NCBI GenBank assembly: GCA_024653575.1
Contig: JANLIJ010000109.1
Coordinates: 1 to 33,918, forward strand
Length of the DNA stretch: 33,918 bases
Reading direction: 5' to 3'
Source of the DNA: Candidatus Kaiserbacteria bacterium
GTDB taxonomy: Bacteria; Patescibacteriota; Minisyncoccia; Phycocordibacterales; UBA918
In this document: positions 3,408-33,918 of the stretch, piece by piece
Position numbering within the stretch: the stretch's first letter is position 1
Layout: each line of letters begins with the position of its first letter
Made by a program: the position numbers and the translations under genes
The notes under the pieces: generated by a model
Database searches by the model: none
Seen by the model: only the letters and a program-made list of their open reading frames with translations
What the model was told of the DNA's origin: nothing

Positions 3408-5008
3408 TTCTCTTTAATCTGTGCGATTGCCTCCTCGTCTGCAAAGGTAATAATACGAACACCTTCAGTGAGACCGCTCGTTATCTCAGTCATTCCATCT
3501 GAACCACGGAGTCCGGTGGTAACATCCTGCTCAACGACTTCACCACCGTCGGTAATAACGCGAACAAACTTCCCTTCATCATTTTCATAAATAGAACGTG
3601 TCGGTATTGCAATAACTCCTTCGCGCGTTGCCGTAGTGATGTCAATTTGAGCAGTGAGTCCATCTTTAATTAGATCACTCTCTTCGTCAAAGAGTAGCGT
3701 GACGGCAAACACCCGCACACCAGAGACGAGTGTTGCATTTGGCGCCACCTTCGAGACTTTTGCAGTAAATTCCCTATCATCGTATGCATCGAAGGTGATG
3801 ACTGCGTGGTCACCAACGGATATCTCAGCGATATCAACCTCCGAAATATCTACAGTCACCTCAAAACCGTTGTGCGCATTGAGCGACACTGCAGGTATTC
3901 CAGAAGATACTATCTGTCCAACTTCTGTAGCAACTGACGTAACGACACCTGCAAACGGCGCGGTGATGACTGTATTACTGTATGCAACATGTGCCTGTGC
4001 GACGAGCGCCTCCATTTGCCTGACCACAGCACGTTGTGCGACGAGCTGTTCCTCGCGAGCAGAACTCGATATCTGTGTGAGCTGTGAACGAGCTTGAATG
4101 AGGCCTGCTTCTGCTGTCTTCACTGCACTCTCAGCATTTGTGAGCGCAATATTGCGTGCTTCGAGCACTGCATTATATGTATTCAAGTTTGTGAGATAGG
4201 AACTCGAACGGATATTGGGGACAGGAATCTCCCACACCGTACGTTTTGCAAAATTGTCTGGAAACTGCACATAGAGTCCGCGCACGCCAATTGCAACTGG
4301 ATTTACCGTTGACACTGGGTGTGTATCGCTCTCTAAACCAGAAATTCTCACCGATGCTCCCGATGGGGAATTCGAATCATAGAGTTCGAGTCGATACAGA
4401 CCCTCTTCATCACTCTCATACACACCAGTAATTGTCGGCGCTGTGTACGAAAACGGAGAATTCTCATTTTCCTCACTTACCAAATACGCCTCAAGCGATG
4501 AAGACCGCAAAGTCTTCTCTGCATTTACGACAAGCTGATCTTGCTGTGCCGTTACATCCACAAGATTCCGCCTCGTATTCAAGAGAGTTGTTTCTGCAAG
4601 AGCGACGCTCGATTCGGTGACCGCGCGACTTGTGCTGTCTGCACCCGCAAGCATCTCCTCGAGTCGTATTCGCTCAGCATCGAGGCGTGCCTGTGCTGAG
4701 AAAAGGTCACTTCCCTGTCTTGAACCATCGAGTACAATGAGCACCGCGCCCGCATCAACAAAACTACCTTCATCGACAAGGATACTTTTCACCTGTCCCC
4801 CACTCTGAAATGCCAAATCAACAGTTTGCGAAACTTTTACAAATCCAGTCTCATTCACCACCTCCTCGACTCTACCTTTCTCAACCATACCGACTTCAAC
4901 CCCCTCAGGAAGACCCCCCTTTGTGCCCTGCACATACCACACAACAACCCCCGCAACGAGCACGATTATGAGAAACCAATATTTCTTTGGAAGAACAAAT
5001 TTTCTCAT
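3404..5008 (-). CDS. HlyD/MacA-family periplasmic adaptor subunit
   Basis: N-terminal TM, split biotinyl-lipoyl-like domain, coiled coil and beta-barrel; 4-bp overlap with the ABC ATPase gene. Confidence 0.88.
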   Translation of the reverse strand: MRKFVLPKKYWFLIIVLVAGVVVWYVQGTKGGLPEGVEVGMVEKGRVEEVVNETGFVKVSQTVDLAFQSGGQVKSILVDEGSFVDAGAVLIVLDGSRQGSDLFSAQARLDAERIRLEEMLAGADSTSRAVTESSVALAETTLLNTRRNLVDVTAQQDQLVVNAEKTLRSSSLEAYLVSEENENSPFSYTAPTITGVYESDEEGLYRLELYDSNSPSGASVRISGLESDTHPVSTVNPVAIGVRGLYVQFPDNFAKRTVWEIPVPNIRSSSYLTNLNTYNAVLEARNIALTNAESAVKTAEAGLIQARSQLTQISSSAREEQLVAQRAVVRQMEALVAQAHVAYSNTVITAPFAGVVTSVATEVGQIVSSGIPAVSLNAHNGFEVTVDISEVDIAEISVGDHAVITFDAYDDREFTAKVSKVAPNATLVSGVRVFAVTLLFDEESDLIKDGLTAQIDITTATREGVIAIPTRSIYENDEGKFVRVITDGGEVVEQDVTTGLRGSDGMTEITSGLTEGVRIITFADEEAIAQIKEN

Positions 5009-23534: not shown

Positions 23535-24714
23535 TTGAGTAAAGATCGGCTTCATCACTCTTCTCAGGCTCCGGTGCTGGAGCCACCACTGGTTCAACGA
23601 TTGGTTGTTCAGACTGCACCTGTGCAACTTTTTCTAACACATCCACGACTGTCTCATGTTCATCGTATTCTTCATGAACTTCCTGCTCAGTGAGGGTGAC
23701 CTCGGGCACATCGAGGGAATCATGCTTTGTAAAATGCTCTTCATCAGTAGGCGATACGAATTCGTCAACTACGACTGGAACTCCAATACTTTCAGCAACA
23801 ACATTTTGTTGTGGTACTTGCTCAAGCGGTATCGAGGCCTCAAGGTGGGCGAGGAGCTTTGTTGCAGTTCCACCGTATACAGAAGACTCAGCCTTATGAA
23901 TGATGTCGAGCACTTTGCGAAGGTCTTCTGATGCAAAGTAATCGATAGTGAGCTTCCCACCGAAATCAGTCTTTTGGATTTGTACCCTCGTGCCAAATGT
24001 CTCAGTGAACTGACGTTCAATTTCAATAAGTTCAGGGTCCGAATCTTGCCAATTCTTCTTTCGTACTTTATCCGTCGCAATCTTTCGTGAGATGCGCTCA
24101 ACTTCACGAACTGAAAGTTTCTTTATGAGAATTTCACGAAACACGACATCCTGCTCTGTCGGCCTGTCATTGAGCATGAGGAGTGTTCGTGCGTGCCCGT
24201 CAGAGATATCGCCACCGCGAAGTGCATTGAGGATTGCTTCAGGGAGTGCGAGCAAACGAATCGAGTTTGATACGTATTCACGACTCCTTCCAACCTTTTG
24301 AGCCACCTGCAAATGTGAGAGGCCGAATTGCTCTGCAAGCTGTTTGAATGCCTGTGCTCTATCGACAGCATTGAGATCCTCGCGTTGAAGGTTTTCGATG
24401 ATGGCAAGCTCAAGCTTCATGAGCTCTGTCTCCTCACCGGAACGGATGATAACGGGGACTTGTATGAGCCCAGCAAGTTTTGAAGCTCTGAGGCGCCGTT
24501 CACCTGCAATCAGTTCATACTCTGTGGTGAAAGCACCATTCTCACCAATAATCTCGCGTCGTGTCGCCACAAGTGGTTGCAGTACACCATACATGCGGAT
24601 TGATTCGGCAAGCTCTTGGAGCTTTGACTGGTCGAATTCACGCCGTGGTTGAAACGGATTCGGGACAATTTTTTCTGTCTCAATCCAAAAAATCGAGTTA
24701 CTTTCGTACGCCAT
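23515..24714 (-). CDS. parB: ParB/Spo0J-family partition protein
   Basis: PNPFQPRREFDQSKLQELAESI, LIAGERRLRASKLAGL, helix-turn-helix LSHLQVAQKVGRSREYVSNSIRLL. Confidence 0.92.
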   Translation of the reverse strand: MAYESNSIFWIETEKIVPNPFQPRREFDQSKLQELAESIRMYGVLQPLVATRREIIGENGAFTTEYELIAGERRLRASKLAGLIQVPVIIRSGEETELMKLELAIIENLQREDLNAVDRAQAFKQLAEQFGLSHLQVAQKVGRSREYVSNSIRLLALPEAILNALRGGDISDGHARTLLMLNDRPTEQDVVFREILIKKLSVREVERISRKIATDKVRKKNWQDSDPELIEIERQFTETFGTRVQIQKTDFGGKLTIDYFASEDLRKVLDIIHKAESSVYGGTATKLLAHLEASIPLEQVPQQNVVAESIGVPVVVDEFVSPTDEEHFTKHDSLDVPEVTLTEQEVHEEYDEHETVVDVLEKVAQVQSEQPIVEPVVAPAPEPEKSDEADLYSIKNFSL

Positions 24715-24860
24715 GGTGGATATTGTATCACATTGATTATTTCCTCCTTACAGGAGCTATACACCTTTCGCAAAAACTGCTCAAGGTCTTGCGAAGCTCC
24801 AAGTATTCGCTTCTCACCCCGTGTATAATTTGATACACTCACATAGTTCATTCCCAAAGT

Positions 24861-24942
24861 GCTGGGATGGCGGAATTGGTATACGCTCACGACTCAAAAT
24901 CGTGTGTCGCAAGACTTGAGGGTTCAAGTCCCTCTCCCAGCA
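24861..24942 (+). tRNA. tRNA-Leu (anticodon CAA)
   Basis: Acceptor GCTGGGA/TCCCAGC, anticodon loop CTCAAAA, class II variable arm, T-arm GGGTTCAAGTCCC; CCA not encoded. Confidence 0.93.
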
Positions 24943-24965
24943 CTTTGTGAAGGAAAATAAAAACA

Positions 24966-24993
24966 AAAAACCCGTCGTGAAGTACGGGTTTTT
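24966..24993. terminator. Intrinsic-terminator-like hairpin after tRNA-Leu
   Basis: AAAAACCCGT...ACGGGTTTTT. Confidence 0.75.
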
Positions 24994-25008
24994 CGTACTA
25001 CGACGGAT

Positions 25009-25707
25009 TCACCTCCTCGTGAACATGTTATACGCGAGTGCAGACTTCCTCTCCCTGAGCCATGCGCCGACTGACTCATCGCCGACCGCGATTTCAATCT
25101 TGGTCGCCCAATCGAGGTCGCCCCTCCTATAGCGAAACAGGTGGTTGCCGAGAAGAGAGATATCAAATTTACCCTCGTTCTGTTCAGCCATTTTCCCGAA
25201 TACAAAATGCGGGCGATTTACACCTCTGCGATACCGAGGCTTAAGGTTGTTCTCCCACAAGACCGGTGCAAGGACTTTGCTCGGAGTAATGAACGTGAAT
25301 TTACTACCCTGCGCATGCAGTGGATGGTGCTCTTCACGGATTTCTTCAATCGTGTCGCCAGTGAGACGCGCGACCGAGACCCAACGCACGGTCTCAGACC
25401 TCATCCCAGACCCGTGCGCAAAGCTATGAAAGCCATTCGGAACCGTCGTAAGAAATTCCTGGTACTTGAGGATGAGCTCACCCACGTGACCCTGTATTGC
25501 AGGCGCGAGTACGCTTCGTGTGAGCCTCCTTTGAAGCCCGTTGCCCAGCCCTTCGGTACGTTTTTCTGCAGAATCCCAGACATACTTCAACGCGAGTACA
25601 TCTGGGCTGTTTGCGGTTATGATCACAGTGCACCTCCGTATATTGGTTTGAGAACATGACCAAACTTCTTCCAAACAAAAGACTACTCTATCCAGATATA
25701 ATTGCAA
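25009..25707 (-). CDS. Hypothetical protein
   Basis: 232-aa ORF, no family recognised; start uncertain. Confidence 0.5.
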   Translation of the reverse strand: MQLYLDRVVFCLEEVWSCSQTNIRRCTVIITANSPDVLALKYVWDSAEKRTEGLGNGLQRRLTRSVLAPAIQGHVGELILKYQEFLTTVPNGFHSFAHGSGMRSETVRWVSVARLTGDTIEEIREEHHPLHAQGSKFTFITPSKVLAPVLWENNLKPRYRRGVNRPHFVFGKMAEQNEGKFDISLLGNHLFRYRRGDLDWATKIEIAVGDESVGAWLRERKSALAYNMFTRR

Positions 25708-25725
25708 ATATGCGCTAAGGTGATT

Positions 25726-25754
25726 TTGATTAGGTTCATATTCTGTGATATAAT
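25726..25754 (+). promoter_or_regulatory. Sigma70-like promoter for hicBA
   Basis: TTGATT (25726-25731), 17 nt, TATAAT (25749-25754). Confidence 0.75.
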
Positions 25755-25760
25755 ATTTAA

Positions 25761-25988
25761 ATGAAAAATATTATTCAGTTTCAAATCTCTAAAGGTGATG
25801 AATATTATGTTGCAGAAGGTGTTAATGTCGCTGTAGTTACACAAGGAAAAACACTTGATGAACTTACGGTAAATATTCGCGAGGCTGTACAGGCTCACCT
25901 TGAAGGTGAGAACCTAGAAGAGCTCGGCCTCGGTCAATCTCCATCGGTGTTGGTGAACTTCGAATTACCACAACTTGCTCATGCCTAG
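25761..25988 (+). CDS. HicB-like antitoxin
   Basis: YYVAEGVNVAVVTQGKTLDELTVNIREAVQAHLEG, typical of HicB/UPF0150. Confidence 0.8.
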   Translation: MKNIIQFQISKGDEYYVAEGVNVAVVTQGKTLDELTVNIREAVQAHLEGENLEELGLGQSPSVLVNFELPQLAHA

Positions 25989-26223
25989 ACTAAAAGTTCT
26001 CTCGGCAAAAGAAGTTATTGGTATCTTAGAAAATCAGGGTTTTAGTGTTGCTAGTCAAAAAGGAAGTCACATTAAATTAAGGAGAAATACTTCTTACGGC
26101 ACAGAAATACTCACAATACCAAACCACAAAGAAATTGATCGTGGTACCCTGAAAGCGATTTTTAATCAGACACTCAAATTCATACCAGAAGATGTACTGA
26201 GAAACTCTTTTTATACTGATTAG
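25981..26223 (+). CDS. HicA-like mRNA interferase toxin
   Basis: LSAKEVIGILENQGFSVASQKGSHIKLRR...TIPNHKEIDRGTLKAI; overlaps hicB by 8 nt. Confidence 0.88.
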   Translation: MPRLKVLSAKEVIGILENQGFSVASQKGSHIKLRRNTSYGTEILTIPNHKEIDRGTLKAIFNQTLKFIPEDVLRNSFYTD

Positions 26224-26232
26224 ATTCGTTCA

Positions 26233-27135
26233 ATGACTGGCACCCACAAATCAAAAGTCCTCGTCATTGTGGGACCAACTGCATCGGGAAAGACTTCCCT
26301 TTCTATTGAACTTGGGAAGAGATTTAATGGCGAGATTATTTCTGCTGATTCACGGCAAGTATATAGAGGACTTGATATTGGTACAGGAAAGGTGACGCGG
26401 GCAGAGATGCAAGGAATTCACCACCACCTCCTCGATGTCGCAGAGCCTCAAAATGTGTATACCGTCGCGGACTACGTCCGCGACGGTCGCATCGCTATTG
26501 ACAGCATCCTCTCACGAGAGAAGCTCCCCATTATCGTCGGTGGTACCTTTTTCTATATAAACGCACTTCTCGGAGCAGTCTCCACACCTGAAGTTCCACC
26601 AAATGTGAAATTGCGAGAGGAACTTGAAAAGTATTCAAACGAAGAGCTTTTTGAAATACTTAAAGAGAAGGATAATGCACGGGCAGAGACCATTGACCCA
26701 AGTAACCAGAGAAGGTTAATTCGAGCAATTGAAATCGCCTCTGCACTCGGAGCAGTTCCCAAGACACGTGCTGTAGAGCTCTATAATGCCCTTGCAATAG
26801 GCATTCATATCGAGAAGGAGGATTTACTTAAAAATATACATACGCGCCTTGTAGAACGAATTACGGCGGGAATGATTGATGAGGTTGTCACACTCCACAA
26901 GAATGGCCTTTCCTATGAACGGATGACTGAACTCGGAATTGAATACCAACACATCTCAAGATATCTTCAAAATAAAATTACCAAAGATGAGATGTGCTCA
27001 CTCATTGAAACAAAAAGTCGGCAGTACGCTAAGCGACAGATGACGTGGCTGAAGCGAGACAAGGTAATTCAATGGGTAAGGAAAGATGAGTCTGAGAAGA
27101 TTGAAGGGTTGGTGAATGGATTCCTAATCAATTAG
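26233..27135 (+). CDS. miaA: tRNA dimethylallyltransferase
   Basis: VIVGPTASGKTSLSIELGKRFNGEIISADSRQVYRGLDIGTGK. Confidence 0.96.
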   Translation: MTGTHKSKVLVIVGPTASGKTSLSIELGKRFNGEIISADSRQVYRGLDIGTGKVTRAEMQGIHHHLLDVAEPQNVYTVADYVRDGRIAIDSILSREKLPIIVGGTFFYINALLGAVSTPEVPPNVKLREELEKYSNEELFEILKEKDNARAETIDPSNQRRLIRAIEIASALGAVPKTRAVELYNALAIGIHIEKEDLLKNIHTRLVERITAGMIDEVVTLHKNGLSYERMTELGIEYQHISRYLQNKITKDEMCSLIETKSRQYAKRQMTWLKRDKVIQWVRKDESEKIEGLVNGFLIN

Positions 27136-27215
27136 CACAATGGTGGTTTAAAACCCATTTTGTTTCGAAATCTATATCATCCATGTGATAATAAAGCACC
27201 TCAATTTCCCATCTC

Positions 27216-28703
27216 ATGTATACCACCTTAAAACAATACTTTGGCTACGACGAATTTCGCCCGCTACAAAAGGAGATTATCGAGCGAGTGATGGATAAAA
27301 AGGATTGTTTAGTGCTTATGCCAACAGGCGGAGGTAAATCACTCTGTTTCCAATTGCCCGCGTTACTGCAATTGGGTACTACCATTGTCATTTCTCCGCT
27401 TATCTCGCTCATGAAAGATCAGGTAGATGCTCTGCTTGGAAATGGTATAAGCTCAGCCTTCATCAATAGCTCACTCCGCCAAGACGAAATCACTGAAGTG
27501 ATAGAAAAAGTAAAGAGTGGCTCACTCAAAATCCTATACATAACACCCGAACGACTTGCGCTTCCACAATTTGAAGCAATTCTACACACACTTCCGGTGA
27601 GCCTGTTCGCTATTGACGAAGCTCACTGTATCTCAGAATGGGGACATGACTTCCGACCCGACTACCGTAACCTCAAGTCACTTCGACAAAAATTTCCTTC
27701 TATCCCCATCATTGCACTGACCGCTACCGCTACCGAAAAAGTTCGAGCGGATATCGTCAACCAACTCGCACTTCCCTCTCCTCATATTTTCACTTCAAGT
27801 TTTAATCGACAAAACTTAAGCTATGAGGTTTTGCAAAAAAAGGATTCATTCTCCACAATTCTTTCGCTTGTGTCTTTGTATAAAGGAGAAAGTATTATCA
27901 TCTACTGTTTCTCACGCAAAGACACCGAAACGATTGCTGAGAAATTAAACAAACAAGGATACAAGGCTGGCACATACCACGCAGGCCTGAGTTCCGACAC
28001 ACGCAGAGACAATCAAGAACGTTTTATCCGTGATGATATCCAGATTATGGTAGCTACCATTGCCTTTGGCATGGGCATCGATAAACCTGATGTACGTTTG
28101 GTCATCCACCACAGTCTCCCCAAATCAATTGAAGGATACTATCAAGAAACGGGGCGCGCAGGACGAGACGGACTCCCCGCACGCTGTGTACTCCTGTTCT
28201 CTCTTGCAGACAAATTCAAGCATGACTATTTCAACAACCAAATTGCAGATCCGGAGGAAAAACAGCAGGTGCAATACAACCTGGAGCAATCGGTGCAGTA
28301 TGGGAAACTGAGCAGTTGTCGCAGAAAATTTTTGCTTAAGTATTTTAATGAAGAATACAAAGAACAAAATTGTGGAAACTGTGACCGCTGTGTTTTTCCT
28401 ACTCCACTCATAATTCAAAAACCTAAGAAGGTTATACAAAAATCAGTCGCGTCGTTCGTAACAGATACCAACTACGACGTTTCACTATTTGAGGCACTGC
28501 GGAAAATCCGGACAAGCGAAGCGACACGACTCAGAATCCCTCCGTACATCGTCTTTGGTGACAAAGCACTTCATGAGATGGCTCTTCATAAACCAAAAAC
28601 AGCTACGGCATTCCTCAACATCAACGGCGTTGGTGAGAAAAAATTAACACAATTTGGAGAGATTTTCATGGAGGCTATACGGAAGTTTGAGGGTGGGGAA
28701 TGA
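27216..28703 (+). CDS. recQ: ATP-dependent DNA helicase RecQ (short) with C-terminal HRDC-like region
   Basis: LMPTGGGKSLCFQLPALL, DEAHCISEWGHDFRPDYRNL, QETGRAGRDGLPA, Cys cluster CRRKFLLKYFNEEYKEQNCGNCDRC. Confidence 0.95.
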   Translation: MYTTLKQYFGYDEFRPLQKEIIERVMDKKDCLVLMPTGGGKSLCFQLPALLQLGTTIVISPLISLMKDQVDALLGNGISSAFINSSLRQDEITEVIEKVKSGSLKILYITPERLALPQFEAILHTLPVSLFAIDEAHCISEWGHDFRPDYRNLKSLRQKFPSIPIIALTATATEKVRADIVNQLALPSPHIFTSSFNRQNLSYEVLQKKDSFSTILSLVSLYKGESIIIYCFSRKDTETIAEKLNKQGYKAGTYHAGLSSDTRRDNQERFIRDDIQIMVATIAFGMGIDKPDVRLVIHHSLPKSIEGYYQETGRAGRDGLPARCVLLFSLADKFKHDYFNNQIADPEEKQQVQYNLEQSVQYGKLSSCRRKFLLKYFNEEYKEQNCGNCDRCVFPTPLIIQKPKKVIQKSVASFVTDTNYDVSLFEALRKIRTSEATRLRIPPYIVFGDKALHEMALHKPKTATAFLNINGVGEKKLTQFGEIFMEAIRKFEGGE

Positions 28704-28843
28704 TTATGGAGGCCGGACCTCAGGAAAGACGTGTTGGTGTTTTCATTTTGCGGGGTCAAGTTTCTAACTCGCTACGCTCGTAAGAACTTCCTCCCCGGAC
28801 TCGCCCTTTTTGCTCCTTGCGGTCGCAAAACATGGCTCCGTCT

Positions 28844-28932
28844 CTCGCAGAGGTACGCGAGCAAAGCAGTTTGCTCGCTACACGAAAAAGACCTGCATAT
28901 TCATGCAGGTCTTTTTCGTGTACCTCTGCGAG
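28844..28932. repeat. Three-way-junction palindrome abutting the tRNA-Trp 3' end
   Basis: Outer stem CTCGCAGAGGTAC/GTACCTCTGCGAG encloses GCGAGCAAA-GCAG-TTTGCTCGC and ACACGAAAAAGACCTGCAT-ATTC-ATGCAGGTCTTTTTCGTGT. Confidence 0.85.
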
Positions 28933-28999
28933 CCCACGAGGATTCGAACCTCGGTCGCTGGTTTTGGAGACCAGAATTCTACCACTGAACTATAGGCCC
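28929..28999 (-). tRNA. tRNA-Trp (anticodon CCA)
   Basis: GGGCCTATAGTTCAGTGGTAGAATTCTGGTCTCCAAAACCAGCGACCGAGGTTCGAATCCTCGTGGGCTC; anticodon loop CTCCAAA. Confidence 0.92.
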
Positions 29000-29039
29000 T
29001 TGTATGTACTATTGAACTTCTCTAGTTTACACCAGCTTT

Positions 29040-29151
29040 AGACCAGAATTCTCCTTCCAAACAACACGAGAGAAATGGAAGTTCACTTACATTTCCGAGC
29101 GAGTGCAGGAAGCAAGAAATCTCTGATTTCTTCCCACTGAACTATAGGCCC
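29040..29151 (-). pseudogene. Interrupted partial copy of tRNA-Trp (5' half split in the D-loop)
   Basis: Exact 18-nt repeat CCACTGAACTATAGGCCC (29134-29151 = 28982-28999) and 13-nt repeat AGACCAGAATTCT (29040-29052 = 28968-28980), separated by an 81-nt hairpin-rich insert. Confidence 0.75.
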
Positions 29152-29201
29152 AGTCAGATGATGTTACGGCATAGATAAGTCTGAGTCAAACAACAATAGT
29201 A

Positions 29202-30122
29202 TTAGATTTTACAAGAGCCTTTTGAAACGGTTATGTCCCAATGTGTTGATTCCAGAACATATTCGTTCCCGCAACTATCACGGTAGCGTGGGCCTCCATG
29301 GTCACCAGTTCTTTGTCCATCTGCCGTCAATTTCGTCTTTAAAAAATTATCAACGGCCTGGTTGTCATTGATGTCAATTTTGTATCCGGCACCATGAGAT
29401 TGTCCTGTTGTGCCACCTGAATGTGGTTCAACAGCACCTGTTATTTCAACATTACAAGCCGTGCATGATTCTTTAATATTTATGGCTTGCTGAAGCGTGT
29501 CCTGTCGTATACCAGTTAGTGTCGTACAACCAGCGGTAGTGGGGCATGTCTCCTTAACTCCTGACGCTCCACTCGTACTCGTGACTTTAACACCGGCCTT
29601 CCCGAGCTCACTCAGCGCTGCTGAATGTGAAAGTGTCCCCGGTGCAATAACACCCGCTGTTGGTGTGCCAATGACGGGAGGAGTGGCTGGGGCAGTGGGA
29701 CTTGGTGGAAGTACAGTACATTGTATTTCATACCATTTCCCTTTGTACTCGTCCTTCACAAGAAGATTAAGTATCGTATTCACGATGAGCCATGAGCCAA
29801 GGAGGATAACGAGCCCAATCACAGAATTCGTCATTATTGAACGCGCAGAGCTTACTGCCCCCGTATCGCCTCCCGACATCACCATCTTCATACCACCCCA
29901 TGCGAAAGTAAGAGCAATGACACTCGCTGAGATTTTAATAAACCAATTTATAATATTCTGTCCGAGTTGTATAAAATCACAAGCTCGACAATCTGGACCG
30001 TCACACGGCACAATTCTCTTTGGTTCTTCTCCATAGACCAAAACTGGTCCTGCAATAACCAAGAAGGCAAGTATCAAAAAAAAGCCAAAACGAAAATTTC
30101 TCATATAGATATATCCTATCAT
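29202..30122 (-). CDS. VirB2/TrbC-like two-TM domain fused to an M15/LAS D,D-peptidase-like domain
   Basis: Signal/TM plus IINWFIKISASVIALTFAWGGMKMVMSGGDTGAVSSARSIMTNSVIGLVILLGSW; C-terminal QSHGAGYKID and ESTHWD metal-ligand-like motifs. Confidence 0.7.
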   Translation of the reverse strand: MIGYIYMRNFRFGFFLILAFLVIAGPVLVYGEEPKRIVPCDGPDCRACDFIQLGQNIINWFIKISASVIALTFAWGGMKMVMSGGDTGAVSSARSIMTNSVIGLVILLGSWLIVNTILNLLVKDEYKGKWYEIQCTVLPPSPTAPATPPVIGTPTAGVIAPGTLSHSAALSELGKAGVKVTSTSGASGVKETCPTTAGCTTLTGIRQDTLQQAINIKESCTACNVEITGAVEPHSGGTTGQSHGAGYKIDINDNQAVDNFLKTKLTADGQRTGDHGGPRYRDSCGNEYVLESTHWDITVSKGSCKI

Positions 30123-30127
30123 AACCC

Positions 30128-30320
30128 AGAACCCCTCTCACATTGAATGACGAACTATCGTGTTCAAAACACGAGCGAGACTGGTCGGCGCAAAACGAAG
30201 CATATAGACATATGATGAGTTTGAGCCGTTACCGGTCGTAGCCGTTGTTTTGGGCACGAGAGGAGTCAAACATGTAATCTTTAAATTTGTATTTATGTGG
30301 TTCAATGTGAGATGGGTTCT
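30128..30320. repeat. 193-bp segment bounded by ~20-nt inverted repeats
   Basis: AGAACCCCTCTCACATTGAA at 30128-30147; reverse complement of 30301-30320 is AGAACCCATCTCACATTGAA (one mismatch). Confidence 0.7.
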
Positions 30321-30388
30321 ATAAACCACACTTCCACTCTGAGGTGAATTATGGTACTTTATAGCGGTCTTTAGAGAGACAAATATCT

Positions 30389-30510
30389 GCGTCGGTACTC
30401 AAGTGAGAAATGGGACGGGACCCATTTCGCAAGAGGTTGTCGATATTTTGTTAAAAATATCATACAACCTGAACAGTCCCTGTAAGGGAGTCAACGAGGG
30501 CAGACTGTAA
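30389..30510 (+). pseudogene. Interrupted tRNA-Tyr 5' half with D-loop insertion
   Basis: AAATATCTGCGTCGGTACTCAAG (30381-30403 = 30659-30681) and GTCAACGAGGGCAGACTGTAA (30490-30510 = 30684-30704), separated by an 86-nt hairpin-rich insert in place of CG. Confidence 0.8.
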
Positions 30511-30666
30511 GACTGGCGCTTCGCGCACCCGGCAGTCTTTCTGGCAAAAGCATCTCCCACCGGAGATACTGTTTAAAGTCGCTATACGCGACAAACCAGT
30601 AAATCTTTCAGATTTCCAGTCTAAAAGCTTGGCAGAAGTAGAACGGTACAATACAATCAAATATCT

Positions 30667-30749
30667 GCGTCGGTACTCAAGCGGTCAACGAGGGCAGACT
30701 GTAAATCTGCTGGCTCCGGCCTACGAAGGTTCGAATCCCTCCCGGCGCA
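30667..30749 (+). tRNA. tRNA-Tyr (anticodon GTA)
   Basis: Acceptor GCGTCGG/CCGGCGC, anticodon arm GCAGA-CTGTAAA-TCTGC, long variable arm, T-loop TTCGAAT; one A-C mismatch in the T stem; CCA not encoded. Confidence 0.88.
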
Positions 30750-30793
30750 CATTTTTAAGGCACCCTTATGGGTGCTTTTAAAATGTGCGCCGG
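30742..30793. terminator. Terminator-like palindrome that includes the tRNA-Tyr 3' acceptor strand
   Basis: CCGGCGCACATTTTTAAGGCACCC-TTAT-GGGTGCTTTTAAAATGTGCGCCGG. Confidence 0.8.
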
Positions 30794-30819
30794 AGTGAGT
30801 GACTAAATGTCACTCACGC

Positions 30820-30914
30820 GAGGGATTCGAAGCTGTTCAGAGATACCTTTTCGAGTGAAACGAAGAAAAGTATCCTGAACGGGTACTGGTCATGTAATGA
30901 CCGAAATTCCCTCC
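30820..30914. repeat. tRNA-Tyr-derived structured repeat R1
   Basis: GAGGGATTCGAA, stem GTTCAG.GATAC/GTATC.CTGAAC, hairpin GGTCATGTAATGACC, GAAATTCCCTCC. Confidence 0.75.
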
Positions 30915-30970
30915 AAGCACAAAATACCAAAACCCAAACATGCCTTGAGTTTTGTTATATTTTGCCGCCG

Positions 30971-31065
30971 GGAGGGATTCGAAAAGGTTGCCTGATATTT
31001 TATGACCGTAGGGAAATAAAATATCGACAACCTGTACTGGTCGTGTAACGACCGAAATTCCCTCC
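30971..31065. repeat. tRNA-Tyr-derived structured repeat R2
   Basis: GGAGGGATTCGAA, stem GGTTG.GATATTTTA/TAAAATATC.CAACC, hairpin GGTCGTGTAACGACC, GAAATTCCCTCC. Confidence 0.75.
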
Positions 31066-31113
31066 TGGGATTCGAAGCTGTTCAAGTAACGACCGAAACT
31101 TCTTACAGAAGCT
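31066..31113. repeat. Truncated structured repeat R3
   Basis: TGGGATTCGAAGCTGTTCAAGTAACGACCGAAACTTCTTACAGAAGCT; the middle of the unit is missing. Confidence 0.65.
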
Positions 31114-31194
31114 GTCCACTCATTGGGTTTTATTCCACTCCGTTACATAAACCCTCAATGAGTCTTGCGAAAGTTTCAAGTATTCACTTTCTCA

Positions 31195-31209
31195 CCCTCC
31201 CGGCGCACA
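31195..31209 (+). repeat. tRNA-Tyr 3'-end direct repeat
   Basis: CCCTCCCGGCGCACA identical to 30737-30751 of tRNA-Tyr. Confidence 0.85.
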
Positions 31210-31289
31210 AATGTTGACTTTACCAAAAAATAGTTATTTACTTCAGACATTCTCAGCAGGACTGAGTGTTCTTCTTCAGGAGAGATCTA

Positions 31290-31862
31290 ATGAGCACAGA
31301 CCATGTTTCACAATACCTTCAGTCTCGGCGAGAGCGTCTCACCTTGCTCGAAGCCATGTGGAATGATCCAAAGGTACAAATGTACAACGATGTGGAACTT
31401 CCGCCCAAGGACGGCTCACCATCAGTCTTCCTTAACGGTCCGACTTCCCGTCATCAGATCCTTGAACTAAACCACCGTTGTCTGTCCGTGTATCATCTGC
31501 GTACGGCAGGCTTTACGGGGTGGATTTTCGCACCCGAACCTCGCGGGCAAGAAGAGTCCGACGATTTCACGGAACGAGATTACATCCATAAGTGGGAGTC
31601 AAGTCGGCGCTTCTCTGCATCATGTAATTCATTCTGGATTCCACGAGATGGCAACGAGCTACTCGGACTCAACAGCAATCTCGAATTGGGTATTGATCTC
31701 GGCAAAGTGTTGTCGGGCATAGAAGGTCAGAAAGTGTTTGTTGGCTGGCCTGATGATGCCATGCGCATGGGACTGCCAAGTCACTACCGTCAGCTCGCAG
31801 ATCTTCCACTCTATCGGAATCTTTGGGTCATGTGCGAGCAAATTGCTCTGCAAATGAAGTGA
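31290..31862 (+). CDS. Nucleoside 2-deoxyribosyltransferase-like protein
   Basis: SVFLNGPTSRH...AGFTGWIFAPEPRG...WESSRRFSASCNSFWIPRD...GLNSNLELGIDLGK, pattern of the 2-deoxyribosyltransferase-like fold. Confidence 0.6.
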   Translation: MSTDHVSQYLQSRRERLTLLEAMWNDPKVQMYNDVELPPKDGSPSVFLNGPTSRHQILELNHRCLSVYHLRTAGFTGWIFAPEPRGQEESDDFTERDYIHKWESSRRFSASCNSFWIPRDGNELLGLNSNLELGIDLGKVLSGIEGQKVFVGWPDDAMRMGLPSHYRQLADLPLYRNLWVMCEQIALQMK

Positions 31863-31968
31863 CCCAGGAACACAATCAGCTCCATCAATGAAAGCAGTTC
31901 GCTTTCCCACGGAGCTGTTTTCATTTTATACAGACTGTTGAGATAAAACCGTTCGGATTTCGTCCCAT

Positions 31969-32023
31969 ACGGCGCACAAAAGCGTAAAAAAGCGAGACTT
32001 GTGTCTCGCTTTTTTACGCTTTT
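31969..32023. repeat. tRNA-Tyr 3'-end fragment plus terminator-like palindrome
   Basis: CGGCGCACAAA at 31969-31979; AAAAGCGTAAAAAAGCGAGAC-TTGT-GTCTCGCTTTTTTACGCTTTT at 31978-32023 (21-bp perfect stem). Confidence 0.8.
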
Positions 32024-32057
32024 GCGGGGGCCTGAGTGAAGTTCGACTCTCACCACT

Positions 32058-33560
32058 TTACTTGATAACAAACTCTTTGAGTAACGTATTTACCATTATA
32101 ACAAAATTATCCATATCTCCATAAATAACAAAGGAAATCACTTCGTTCACTCCTGGCATAGGAATGAGGATTTGTGTCCAATCCCAGTATCCATCGATAC
32201 CACCTTTCTTTATATATATTTCTTTATCTGCAATAGTAGTTGCTGAGAAACTATTAAAATCAGGAAAATCAACAATATTTAAAACCAAGCCTCCTTCTAT
32301 TTTATTTTCTCCTTTTCCAAACTGAGCTTTTTCAACTTTTGATTCTGGATAATTATATAATTGAATATAATTAGTGTGTCTTTCTAATCTCCATTCCATG
32401 GGGTATTCAAAGCTATATACATTATCTTTATCCGTAAACAAGACAGTGTTTTGGGTTGCGCTTTTGCTACTTCCAGTTGAAATTGAGCCAATATAAAACA
32501 AATCTAGTGCGTACTTGAAACGAGCTGTATTCAATGAACCAGCAACAGTTGGCATTGAGTCAATATACTCAGTAACATCTGTACCACACTTTGACTCCAA
32601 TCCTAAAATACTCTGGAAAAAATCCTTCAAAGTAAGCAATTTTGTTATATCAAAAATATGAAATCTGTAAGCTATCCAGCAATTTTGATTGGAGGAGTGC
32701 TTACTAATTTCCTGAATTGAATACTCTTCTTTTTTAACATACAGCACCATATCCATCATATCTGGACTTGTATCTAATTCAGCTTGCAAATCATTCATCC
32801 ATGGAATTGGTTCTCCAGACAAATATTTTTTTGCTATAGTTATTGAAGTGTCTTCATCATTTATGCTTACAGGAGAGGAAGAAATGGTTTTACTTACATC
32901 ATCCACCTCGGCTGCCTTTTCAGGGACAAATGTATACCAAATCCACCCACCAATAACCAACAGTGCGATAAAGAACGTGATAGTAAAATATTTTGATAAT
33001 TGAGGTCCTGGATTAGAATGATTTGATTGAACGGCTTCTTCAGGTTGAAGCCTTGATATAGAATTTCCCTGTTCAATTGCCATGACATATTCTGGTTTGT
33101 ATTTATAGAAAAATATCCCAAAGATAAACAAAAACCATGGCATAAAATATACAAAATATATAAAGTCTGCCTCATTAAAGAATCTAAAAAATGATACTTC
33201 ACGGTAAACCCAAAATATCCCTTGGAGACCAGTTAAAAATGGTGTGTGTGCAAGCAACCAACCAAGAGGGTGCAGGAGTAGTGTGGCACTGAAATACACT
33301 AATGTTGCTTGTAAACTAGCCAATATATAAAGAAACAATTTGTTCTCCCCTTCATCCTGACTCAACTTTTCAATAGCCAATGTAAAGGCGCTCAAAGATG
33401 CGAGTAGTGGCGCAATAAAAATAAATAGCGCTTGTCCATGGAAGAACAAAATAACACTAAGTGCTATTAAAAACACAGGTAGGACTGAAATGATTATATA
33501 GCGGAAAAATATTTTTTCTGTAATTAATGCAGACCAAAAAAACTGCTTAATAGATTTCAT
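32058..33560 (-). CDS. Hypothetical multi-TM protein with C-terminal extracytoplasmic domain
   Basis: 500-aa ORF, N-terminal TM helices, another TM near FFIALLVIGGWIWYTFV, soluble C-terminus. Confidence 0.7.
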   Translation of the reverse strand: MKSIKQFFWSALITEKIFFRYIIISVLPVFLIALSVILFFHGQALFIFIAPLLASLSAFTLAIEKLSQDEGENKLFLYILASLQATLVYFSATLLLHPLGWLLAHTPFLTGLQGIFWVYREVSFFRFFNEADFIYFVYFMPWFLFIFGIFFYKYKPEYVMAIEQGNSISRLQPEEAVQSNHSNPGPQLSKYFTITFFIALLVIGGWIWYTFVPEKAAEVDDVSKTISSSPVSINDEDTSITIAKKYLSGEPIPWMNDLQAELDTSPDMMDMVLYVKKEEYSIQEISKHSSNQNCWIAYRFHIFDITKLLTLKDFFQSILGLESKCGTDVTEYIDSMPTVAGSLNTARFKYALDLFYIGSISTGSSKSATQNTVLFTDKDNVYSFEYPMEWRLERHTNYIQLYNYPESKVEKAQFGKGENKIEGGLVLNIVDFPDFNSFSATTIADKEIYIKKGGIDGYWDWTQILIPMPGVNEVISFVIYGDMDNFVIMVNTLLKEFVIK

Positions 33561-33617
33561 ATAATATTACATTGATTTACCTATATTTTAACACACCGGT
33601 GCCGAACCTCCTCCAGT

Positions 33618-33670
33618 CCGGCGCACAAAATTATAAACGGCTTTTCGGCCGTTTTAATTTTGGGCGCCGG
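33618..33670. repeat. tRNA-Tyr 3'-end fragment plus terminator-like palindrome
   Basis: CCGGCGCACAAAATTATAAACGGC-TTTTC-GGCCGTTTTAATTTTGGGCGCCGG. Confidence 0.8.
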
Positions 33671-33695
33671 GGCAAGGCATCTGTTTACCTTGTGT

Positions 33696-33796
33696 GAGAA
33701 ATTCGAAAAGGTTGCCAGATATTTTGAGAATGAAATGAATCAAAATAACGACAACCTGTACTGGTCATGTAATGACCGAAACTTCTTACAGAAGCT
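33696..33796. repeat. tRNA-Tyr-derived structured repeat R4
   Basis: GAGAAATTCGAA, stem GGTTG.GATATTTT/AAAATA..CAACC, hairpin GGTCATGTAATGACC, GAAACTTCTTACAGAAGCT (last part shared with R3). Confidence 0.75.
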
Positions 33797-33918
33797 ACTA
33801 TGACCCCCACCCCCAACGTATCTTCGCCGTATTTTCACCACTCCCCCTCTCCCTATTTGATATTTCACCCTCTGCATACACTACGAAGTATGTCCTCGTC
33901 TAGAATGAGGTTGTGTAT

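Follow-up and report, generated by a model that had tools for sequence, protein, structure and literature searches.

Which process has placed a series of small folded repeats behind the tRNA-Tyr gene of a Candidatus Kaiserbacteria bacterium is the question raised by contig JANLIJ010000109.1 (assembly GCA_024653575.1). The window, meaning the whole stretch of DNA that was analysed, is 33,918 nucleotides long and makes up one entire contig of a source genome of 1.03 Mb in 220 contigs. The assemblies analysed here are metagenome-derived, as far as the record titles tell. A sequence-only reading of the window had described a two-hairpin module repeated in four copies (R0, R1, R2, and R4) and had suggested that it represents either an RNA mimicking tRNA-Tyr or a family of DNA hairpins. 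We suggest that the modules are, on balance, probably a non-autonomous mobile palindromic DNA element of one order of Patescibacteria, akin to the YPAL and RPE repeats, which targets the T-loops of tRNA genes and copies its target. This interpretation, made from sequence comparison, is based on the many copies, their spread through the order, a structure that is kept despite changes in the stems, the same-strand placement behind tRNAs, the turnover of units at one orthologous tRNA locus, and the extra copies of the target.

The four modules are present where they had been reported (Table 1), and each of them folds better than shuffled versions of itself, with z-scores of −4.1 (R1), −6.7 (R2), −4.3 (R4), and −4.7 (R0) and none of 200 shuffles as good in any of the four. 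The two hairpins, the long arm A and the short arm B, were found as described, but they do not make up the whole structure. In R1, R2, and R4, an outer stem encloses arm A (strands GATATTTT/AAAATATC) together with arm B to form a three-way junction, whereas R0 has no outer stem and carries a third hairpin upstream. The 5′ side of the outer stem is the segment that had been noted as an inverted T-arm (GAGGGATTCGAA), and it pairs with GAAATTCCCTC located 3′ of the short hairpin. This segment is indeed present at the start of R1, R2, and R4; however, it is not a feature of tRNA-Tyr but an inverted copy of whichever tRNA adjoins. The full element can be seen in copies outside tRNA T-loops, R0 included, and consists of GTGAG, a hairpin with a TGGGA loop, CGCAAGA, arm A, TGNACNG, and arm B. 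Its core is about 100 bases long with three hairpins, and the loop of arm B contains GTA. The TGTAA loop, which had been called invariant, is constant in the four named copies but not in the wider family, where it occurs in 76 of 91 copies, with TGTAG, GGTAC, and CGTAG among the variants. At least 36 different arm B stems are found in the family, and the basal stems of arm A vary freely (GGTTG, CCTTG, CTGTTC, and others, compared by eye in the alignments).

To follow the family beyond this locus, a covariance model was built from 13 hand-picked copies, and its E-values are rough. The search, which the sequence-only reading had itself proposed, found 49 copies in the source genome at E≤1 and copies in 35 of 41 related genomes (19 of 25 genera), with a maximum of 52 per genome, all in a single order that includes Ca. 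Kaiserbacteria and Taylorbacteria. In the window, two minus-strand copies and a deletion relic had been overlooked. Among 80 loci from elsewhere (1.23 Mb from Patescibacteria, Firmicutes, and others), only three matches were obtained, in one Kaiserbacteria and one Taylorbacteria locus, and a scan of 240 genomes across the phylum, with few candidates per genome scored, gave matches in this order only. Compensatory change was present in 13 of 17 pairs in a MAFFT alignment of the 13 copies made without model fitting. In the 91-copy alignment, which is fitted to the model and hence biased towards it, all 17 modelled pairs showed double changes, 97.4% of the cells pair (44 to 52% in slid controls), and 414 compensatory cells were observed versus 99.6 in shuffles. 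The covariation claimed from a few copies thus remained significant with more sequences, and a structured, covarying hairpin family is a description that we can adopt. A scan of positions 24000 to 33918 with Rfam 15 returned tRNAs and chance matches only, with no Rfam family for the modules, and three consensus patterns had no match in IMG/VR, which is a weak test of viral carriage since only exact patterns were compared. In the open-access literature, we found no account of such repeats in Patescibacteria.

Mobile DNA has long been known to insert at tRNA genes, usually in the form of elements with an integrase of their own and a single, fixed tRNA end. We counted the linkage of the modules to tRNAs in three well-assembled relatives, which carry 37, 26, and 41 modules. 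On the same strand and within 400 nt downstream of a tRNA lie 17, 12, and 10 of them, respectively, compared with an expectation of 0.35 to 0.55. Downstream of tRNAs, 39 modules are on the same strand versus 4 on the opposite strand (2, 1, and 1 per genome), and 15, 12, and 30 modules are far from any tRNA. Besides Tyr, the neighbouring tRNAs include Lys, Met, Thr, Phe, Gly, Glu, Cys, Arg, Ser, Val, Leu, Trp, His, and Ile, i.e., about 15 identities.

The arrangement behind these tRNAs is a recurring unit of about 105 to 210 bp that reads tRNA–X–terminator palindrome–X′–module–X, in which X is the segment of the host tRNA from the T-loop to the 3′ end and X′ is an inverted X, frequently split by a small hairpin. 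The second X starts at the T-loop, inside arm B, and finishes at the tRNA 3′ end, and these are the edges of the direct repeat. It is identical to the host tRNA in 17 to 21 of 21 positions at about 20 tRNAs, with 20 to 21 in the clearest cases. Each of 40 units was compared with 32 different tRNA ends, and no other end matched better than the local one in 25 cases for X′ and in 17 for X. Since X′ continues into the terminator palindrome and contains no complement of the added CCA, it appears to have been copied from the gene and not from the mature tRNA. At tRNA-Lys and tRNA-Ser, the units stand in tandem. Open reading frames (ORFs) were also seen next to copied tRNA ends: a directly repeated tRNA-Met 3′ end precedes an ORF of the same genome that was judged by eye to resemble a LAGLIDADG-type nuclease (L010:4081-4743), and the stretch from tRNA-Trp to a duplicate of its 3′ end contains a small GIY-YIG-like ORF in a different Patescibacterium (L120, about 4150-4510, reverse strand). 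In L011 (about 1860-2000), modules and small ORFs form an array next to a tRNA-like gene with an apparent group I-type intron.

The same position can be compared among species at tRNA-Arg(tcg), which neighbours the gene of the CCA-adding enzyme. TGTAA units are present there in five genomes (G016, G024, G020, G001, and G009), relics in G014 and G021, and nothing in G005, G013, and G018; on this pattern of presence and absence, units are gained and lost at the orthologous locus. The five units differ in their arms and terminators, and their X′ and X match the tRNA variant of their own species. In other species, the position is occupied by other folded modules (GGGTCGCGAG..GTGACC, GACCAAGAACGCGAG..GGGTC, and GGGGAGGAAG..CTTGACCCC), which brings the structural module types at this one locus to at least four. 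The at least three other types were seen behind tRNAs at L230-L250 (the tRNA-Arg(tcg) loci), L052, L053, and L084, and the window has a further example of the GGGGAGGAAG..CTTGACCCC type close to tRNA-Trp (minus strand, about 28720-28796). At tRNA-Gly(gcc), G016 and G024 share an inherited unit with the same altered second X, in which the stems have changed with full compensation. It is unlikely that the repeat units are an artefact of assembly, because they were seen again within contigs of near-complete assemblies and at this inherited site.

Targets other than the ends of tRNA genes show a related arrangement. At rnhB, the module lies within a partial first copy of the 5′ end of the gene, and the entire gene follows it. 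The arrangement is similar at msrA (in two species), at tRNA-Thr, and at the tRNA-Tyr of the window, where the module is R0. The target duplications are about 22 bp at tRNA ends, about 38 bp at rnhB, and about 64 bp at msrA, which is longer and more complex than usual for miniature elements. Within a protein gene, two copies, one per strand, coincide in G009 with two extra in-frame segments of LepA (EF4) that the solved EF4 structures lack (L079:4699-6750; residues 207-239 and 487-531).

The modules show three traits of the class of miniature palindromic elements (MITE, YPAL, and RPE): dispersed copies of less than 200 bp without a protein gene of their own, duplication of the target, and presence or absence at one locus. 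The closest description we found is that of YPAL/RU-2, an element of about 100 to 170 bp with internal inverted repeats, no TA ends, target duplications of variable length, insertion beside or across dyad symmetry, and no known transposase (PMC2229807). RPE are palindromic repeats of about 100 to 150 bp that are located in intergenic regions, in RNA genes, and, with the reading frame kept, in conserved genes (PMC2229807, PMC10969869), and the copies in LepA resemble them in this respect. Both likenesses are drawn from the published descriptions. The elements studied here differ from YPAL in their phylum, in the three hairpins with a GTA loop, in the strong preference for T-loops, and in the inverted and direct copies of the target, and they differ from RPE in that they lie mostly behind tRNAs with copied tRNA ends. 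The mobile-element explanation can be worded as a mechanism, in which a nuclease or recombinase would recognize the folded strand and insert it at targets that resemble hairpins, chiefly the tRNA T-loop. The insertion would copy the target and leave the gene intact. At tRNAs, the outcome would be the order tRNA–X–terminator–X′–module–X, and at the 5′ ends of genes the module would come to lie inside a partial gene copy, with the complete gene after it. The stems would work as DNA, extruded or single-stranded, and not as an RNA product, and the enzyme may be a host function or be supplied in trans.

Whether the structure acts in DNA or in RNA was examined through the pairs in the stems. A count that does not favour G-U gave 2,444 Watson-Crick pairs and 17 internal mismatches with a G-T:A-C ratio of 2:6. 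The same stem finder yielded too few internal mismatches on tRNAs for a control. For the tRNAs at these loci, the count was instead made in the acceptor stem and the T stem and gave a ratio of 32:3 (stem ends included); the model-aligned count of the modules was 31:9, in which the model itself favours G-U. The missing excess of internal G-T is suggestive of pairing at the DNA level, and of the two options offered from the sequence, the DNA hairpin is the more suitable one. A functional RNA, such as a 3′ trailer or a small RNA that regulates tRNAs or helps to process them, would account for the strong conservation of the structure, the same-strand position behind tRNAs, and the compensatory changes at the inherited tRNA-Gly locus. 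However, a terminator usually stands between the tRNA and the module, many modules are far from tRNAs, some lie inside coding genes on either strand, orthologous tRNAs exist without units, and neither the G-T counts nor Rfam point to an RNA, and we therefore regard this explanation as improbable. The mimic of tRNA-Tyr charged by TyrRS that had first been proposed was rejected and is extremely improbable: the UGUAA loop does resemble U33-GUA-A37 of tRNA-Tyr, but the same loop accompanies tRNAs with about 15 different identities and is also found within protein genes, it varies in sequence, and ARAGORN calls no tRNA on the modules.

Other explanations keep the module as DNA and change how it is inserted. 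The sites known as attC in integrons are folded, with variable sequence and fixed structure (PMC2727003), and the modules share this property. The modules might accordingly be parts of integron-like cassettes, in which a circle X–body–X′–arm A–arm B folds single-stranded, X′ pairs with X to restore a T-arm site in double-stranded form, and a recombinase joins the circle to the tRNA T-loop to give tRNA5′–X–body–X′–module–X, with a body that is sometimes a gene. The observed order of the parts is exactly what such an insertion would leave, the direct repeat runs from the T-loop to the tRNA 3′ end, and, as in integrons, units are repeated behind a fixed anchor (in tandem at tRNA-Lys and tRNA-Ser) with an occasional ORF enclosed by copies of the tRNA end, in the window and next to tRNA-Met. 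Against this, there is no IntI, one XerC/D-like protein is all that most genomes have, the R boxes GTTRRRY/RYYYAAC are absent (by eye), the anchor is a tRNA T-loop, most units are geneless, the ORF segments of the window do not end in a detectable module, and every cassette would have to carry precisely the tRNA end found at its site, down to variants peculiar to one species; on this evidence, integron-like insertion is possible but unlikely. We give a similarly small chance to a new cassette system of Patescibacteria, with interchangeable folded modules, a universal attachment site in the T-loop of almost every tRNA, an outer stem rebuilt from the host tRNA, and genes carried occasionally. 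If this were the case, the folded strand would be a perfect partner for its own target. Integrative elements that target tRNAs, whose attP carries a tRNA 3′ end, likewise duplicate the tRNA end and restore the gene, but the units described here are about 105 to 210 bp without an integrase, have an additional inverted copy, and use many different tRNAs per genome. Copying by reverse transcription, primed by a tRNA or by itself, with X′ corresponding to a primer-binding site and X to the strand copied up to the T-loop, is very improbable. X′ and X do span the stretch from the tRNA 3′ end to the T-loop that retroelements use, and the duplicated flanks vary in length; yet module-rich genomes lack a reverse transcriptase, and the course of X′ into the terminator palindrome does not fit, with the missing complement of CCA leading us to reject synthesis primed by mature tRNA.

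Some observations weigh against a mobile element. The inherited unit at tRNA-Gly with its compensated stems indicates that some copies may be under selection, and no mobilizing enzyme was found among the Y1 transposases, reverse transcriptases, tyrosine recombinases, and GIY-YIG nucleases that were examined (no search was made for DDE transposases or serine recombinases). REP/REPIN sequences, which are mobilized by RAYT, an IS200/IS605-like Y1 protein, are also dispersed palindromes that are thought to be recognized as folded single strands. The modules, however, have no GTAG or CGTC foot and are longer, and Y1, present in 18 of 41 genomes, is missing from the module-rich G008 (28 modules) and G009 (45 modules), so that an IS200/IS605 or RAYT protein was rejected as the driver. 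The absence of Y1 from all nine genomes with 0 or 1 modules is only a weak hint of an association. Reverse transcriptase was rejected as well, being present in 14 of 41 genomes and missing from the module-rich G001, G003, G008, and G009. As for a dedicated tyrosine integrase, only XerC/D-like proteins were seen, a single ordinary one in most genomes, and these scored 115 to 124 bits on catalytic-domain fragments with the integron integrase model, which has a cut-off of 265. No module lies within about 1.5 kb of a Y1, reverse transcriptase, or Xer gene. A GIY-YIG homing nuclease, considered because of the ORF in L120, occurs in all 15 genomes tested, including module-free ones, and is not linked to the modules. 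To our knowledge, no transposase has been reported for RPE either. No passenger ORF recurs near the modules except conserved neighbours and a small helix-turn-helix family (L075:5267-5935, L083:7540-8220, and L055:2686-3072), which is located directly upstream of tRNA-Gly(gcc) in G016 and G024 and is possibly a regulator or a nuclease.

The features of the window are collected in Table 1. Three direct copies of the tRNA-Tyr end bracket the segments that carry the 198- and 500-amino acid (aa) ORFs. No relative of the 198-aa ORF was recognized in Pfam, NCBIfam, or PDB. Because no module of their own is detectable in these segments, any reading of them as gene cassettes can draw only on the repeats. 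Between the partial tRNA-Tyr copy and the intact tRNA-Tyr (30516-30657), there are several more small hairpins.

Table 1. Modules, copied tRNA-Tyr segments, and neighbouring features in the window
Feature	Position	Strand	Evidence
Further copy upstream of tRNA-Leu(caa)	24743..24818	- (opposite strand)	covariance model, 29.4 bits; fold; sequence
Partial first copy of tRNA-Tyr 5′ end; exact repeat at 30658-30681	30380..30403	+	direct repeat
R0, complete three-hairpin copy within D-loop of partial tRNA-Tyr copy	30402..30490	+	covariance model, 59.7 bits; alignment
Partial tRNA-Tyr copy resumes after R0	30490..30515	+	direct repeat, 92%
tRNA-Tyr(GTA), intact, target gene of the array	30667..30750	+	ARAGORN, Rfam RF00005
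X1, tRNA-Tyr T-loop to 3′ end, segment copied	30730..30751	+	inverted copies 30817-30834, 30966-30983; direct copies of last 15 bases at 31195, 31964, 33613
Terminator palindrome reaching into tRNA acceptor end	30742..30793	+	inverted repeat, 24-bp arms, 92% complementary
Small hairpin splitting 5′ strand of outer stem	30795..30817	+	fold
X′ of R1, inverted T-arm copy, 5′ strand of outer stem	30820..30831	+	repeats, fold; 13/14 versus own tRNA
R1 module (arms A and B)	30831..30903	+	covariance model, 74.6 bits
Second X of R1 (GAAATTCCCTCC), 3′ strand of outer stem	30903..30914	+	fold, direct-repeat scan
X′ of R2, exact inverted copy of tRNA-Tyr 3′ part	30966..30983	+	100% inverted repeat
R2 module	30983..31054	+	covariance model, 84.1 bits
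R3 relic, R1-like 5′ part and R4-like 3′ part, arms deleted	31067..31113	+	repeats
Complete three-hairpin copy	31098..31196	-	covariance model, 55 bits; alignment
Direct copy of tRNA 3′ end, 15/15	31195..31209	+	direct repeat
198-aa ORF between two tRNA-end copies	31266..31862	+	ORF; no Pfam, NCBIfam, or PDB relative
Direct copy of tRNA 3′ end (80%), then perfect terminator-like palindrome 31977-32024	31964..31978	+	direct and inverted repeats
500-aa ORF between tRNA-end copies; weak cytochrome-b5-like match	32058..33560	-	ORF
Direct copy of tRNA 3′ end (80%), palindrome to about 33671	33613..33627	+	direct repeat, sequence
X′ of R4, diverged	33696..33707	+	repeat, fold
R4 module	33707..33778	+	covariance model, 83 bits

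These observations differ from the usual case of mobile DNA at tRNA genes in that small folded repeats lie behind many different tRNAs of one genome, where every repeat comes with direct as well as inverted copies of the neighbouring tRNA end, and the bacteria concerned are minimal and host-dependent. The family can serve as a marker in annotation, where it is a source of spurious ORFs, truncated tRNAs, and extra segments in LepA. The enzyme responsible would reveal how an insertion that copies its target works, and it may show a route by which these bacteria gain genes.

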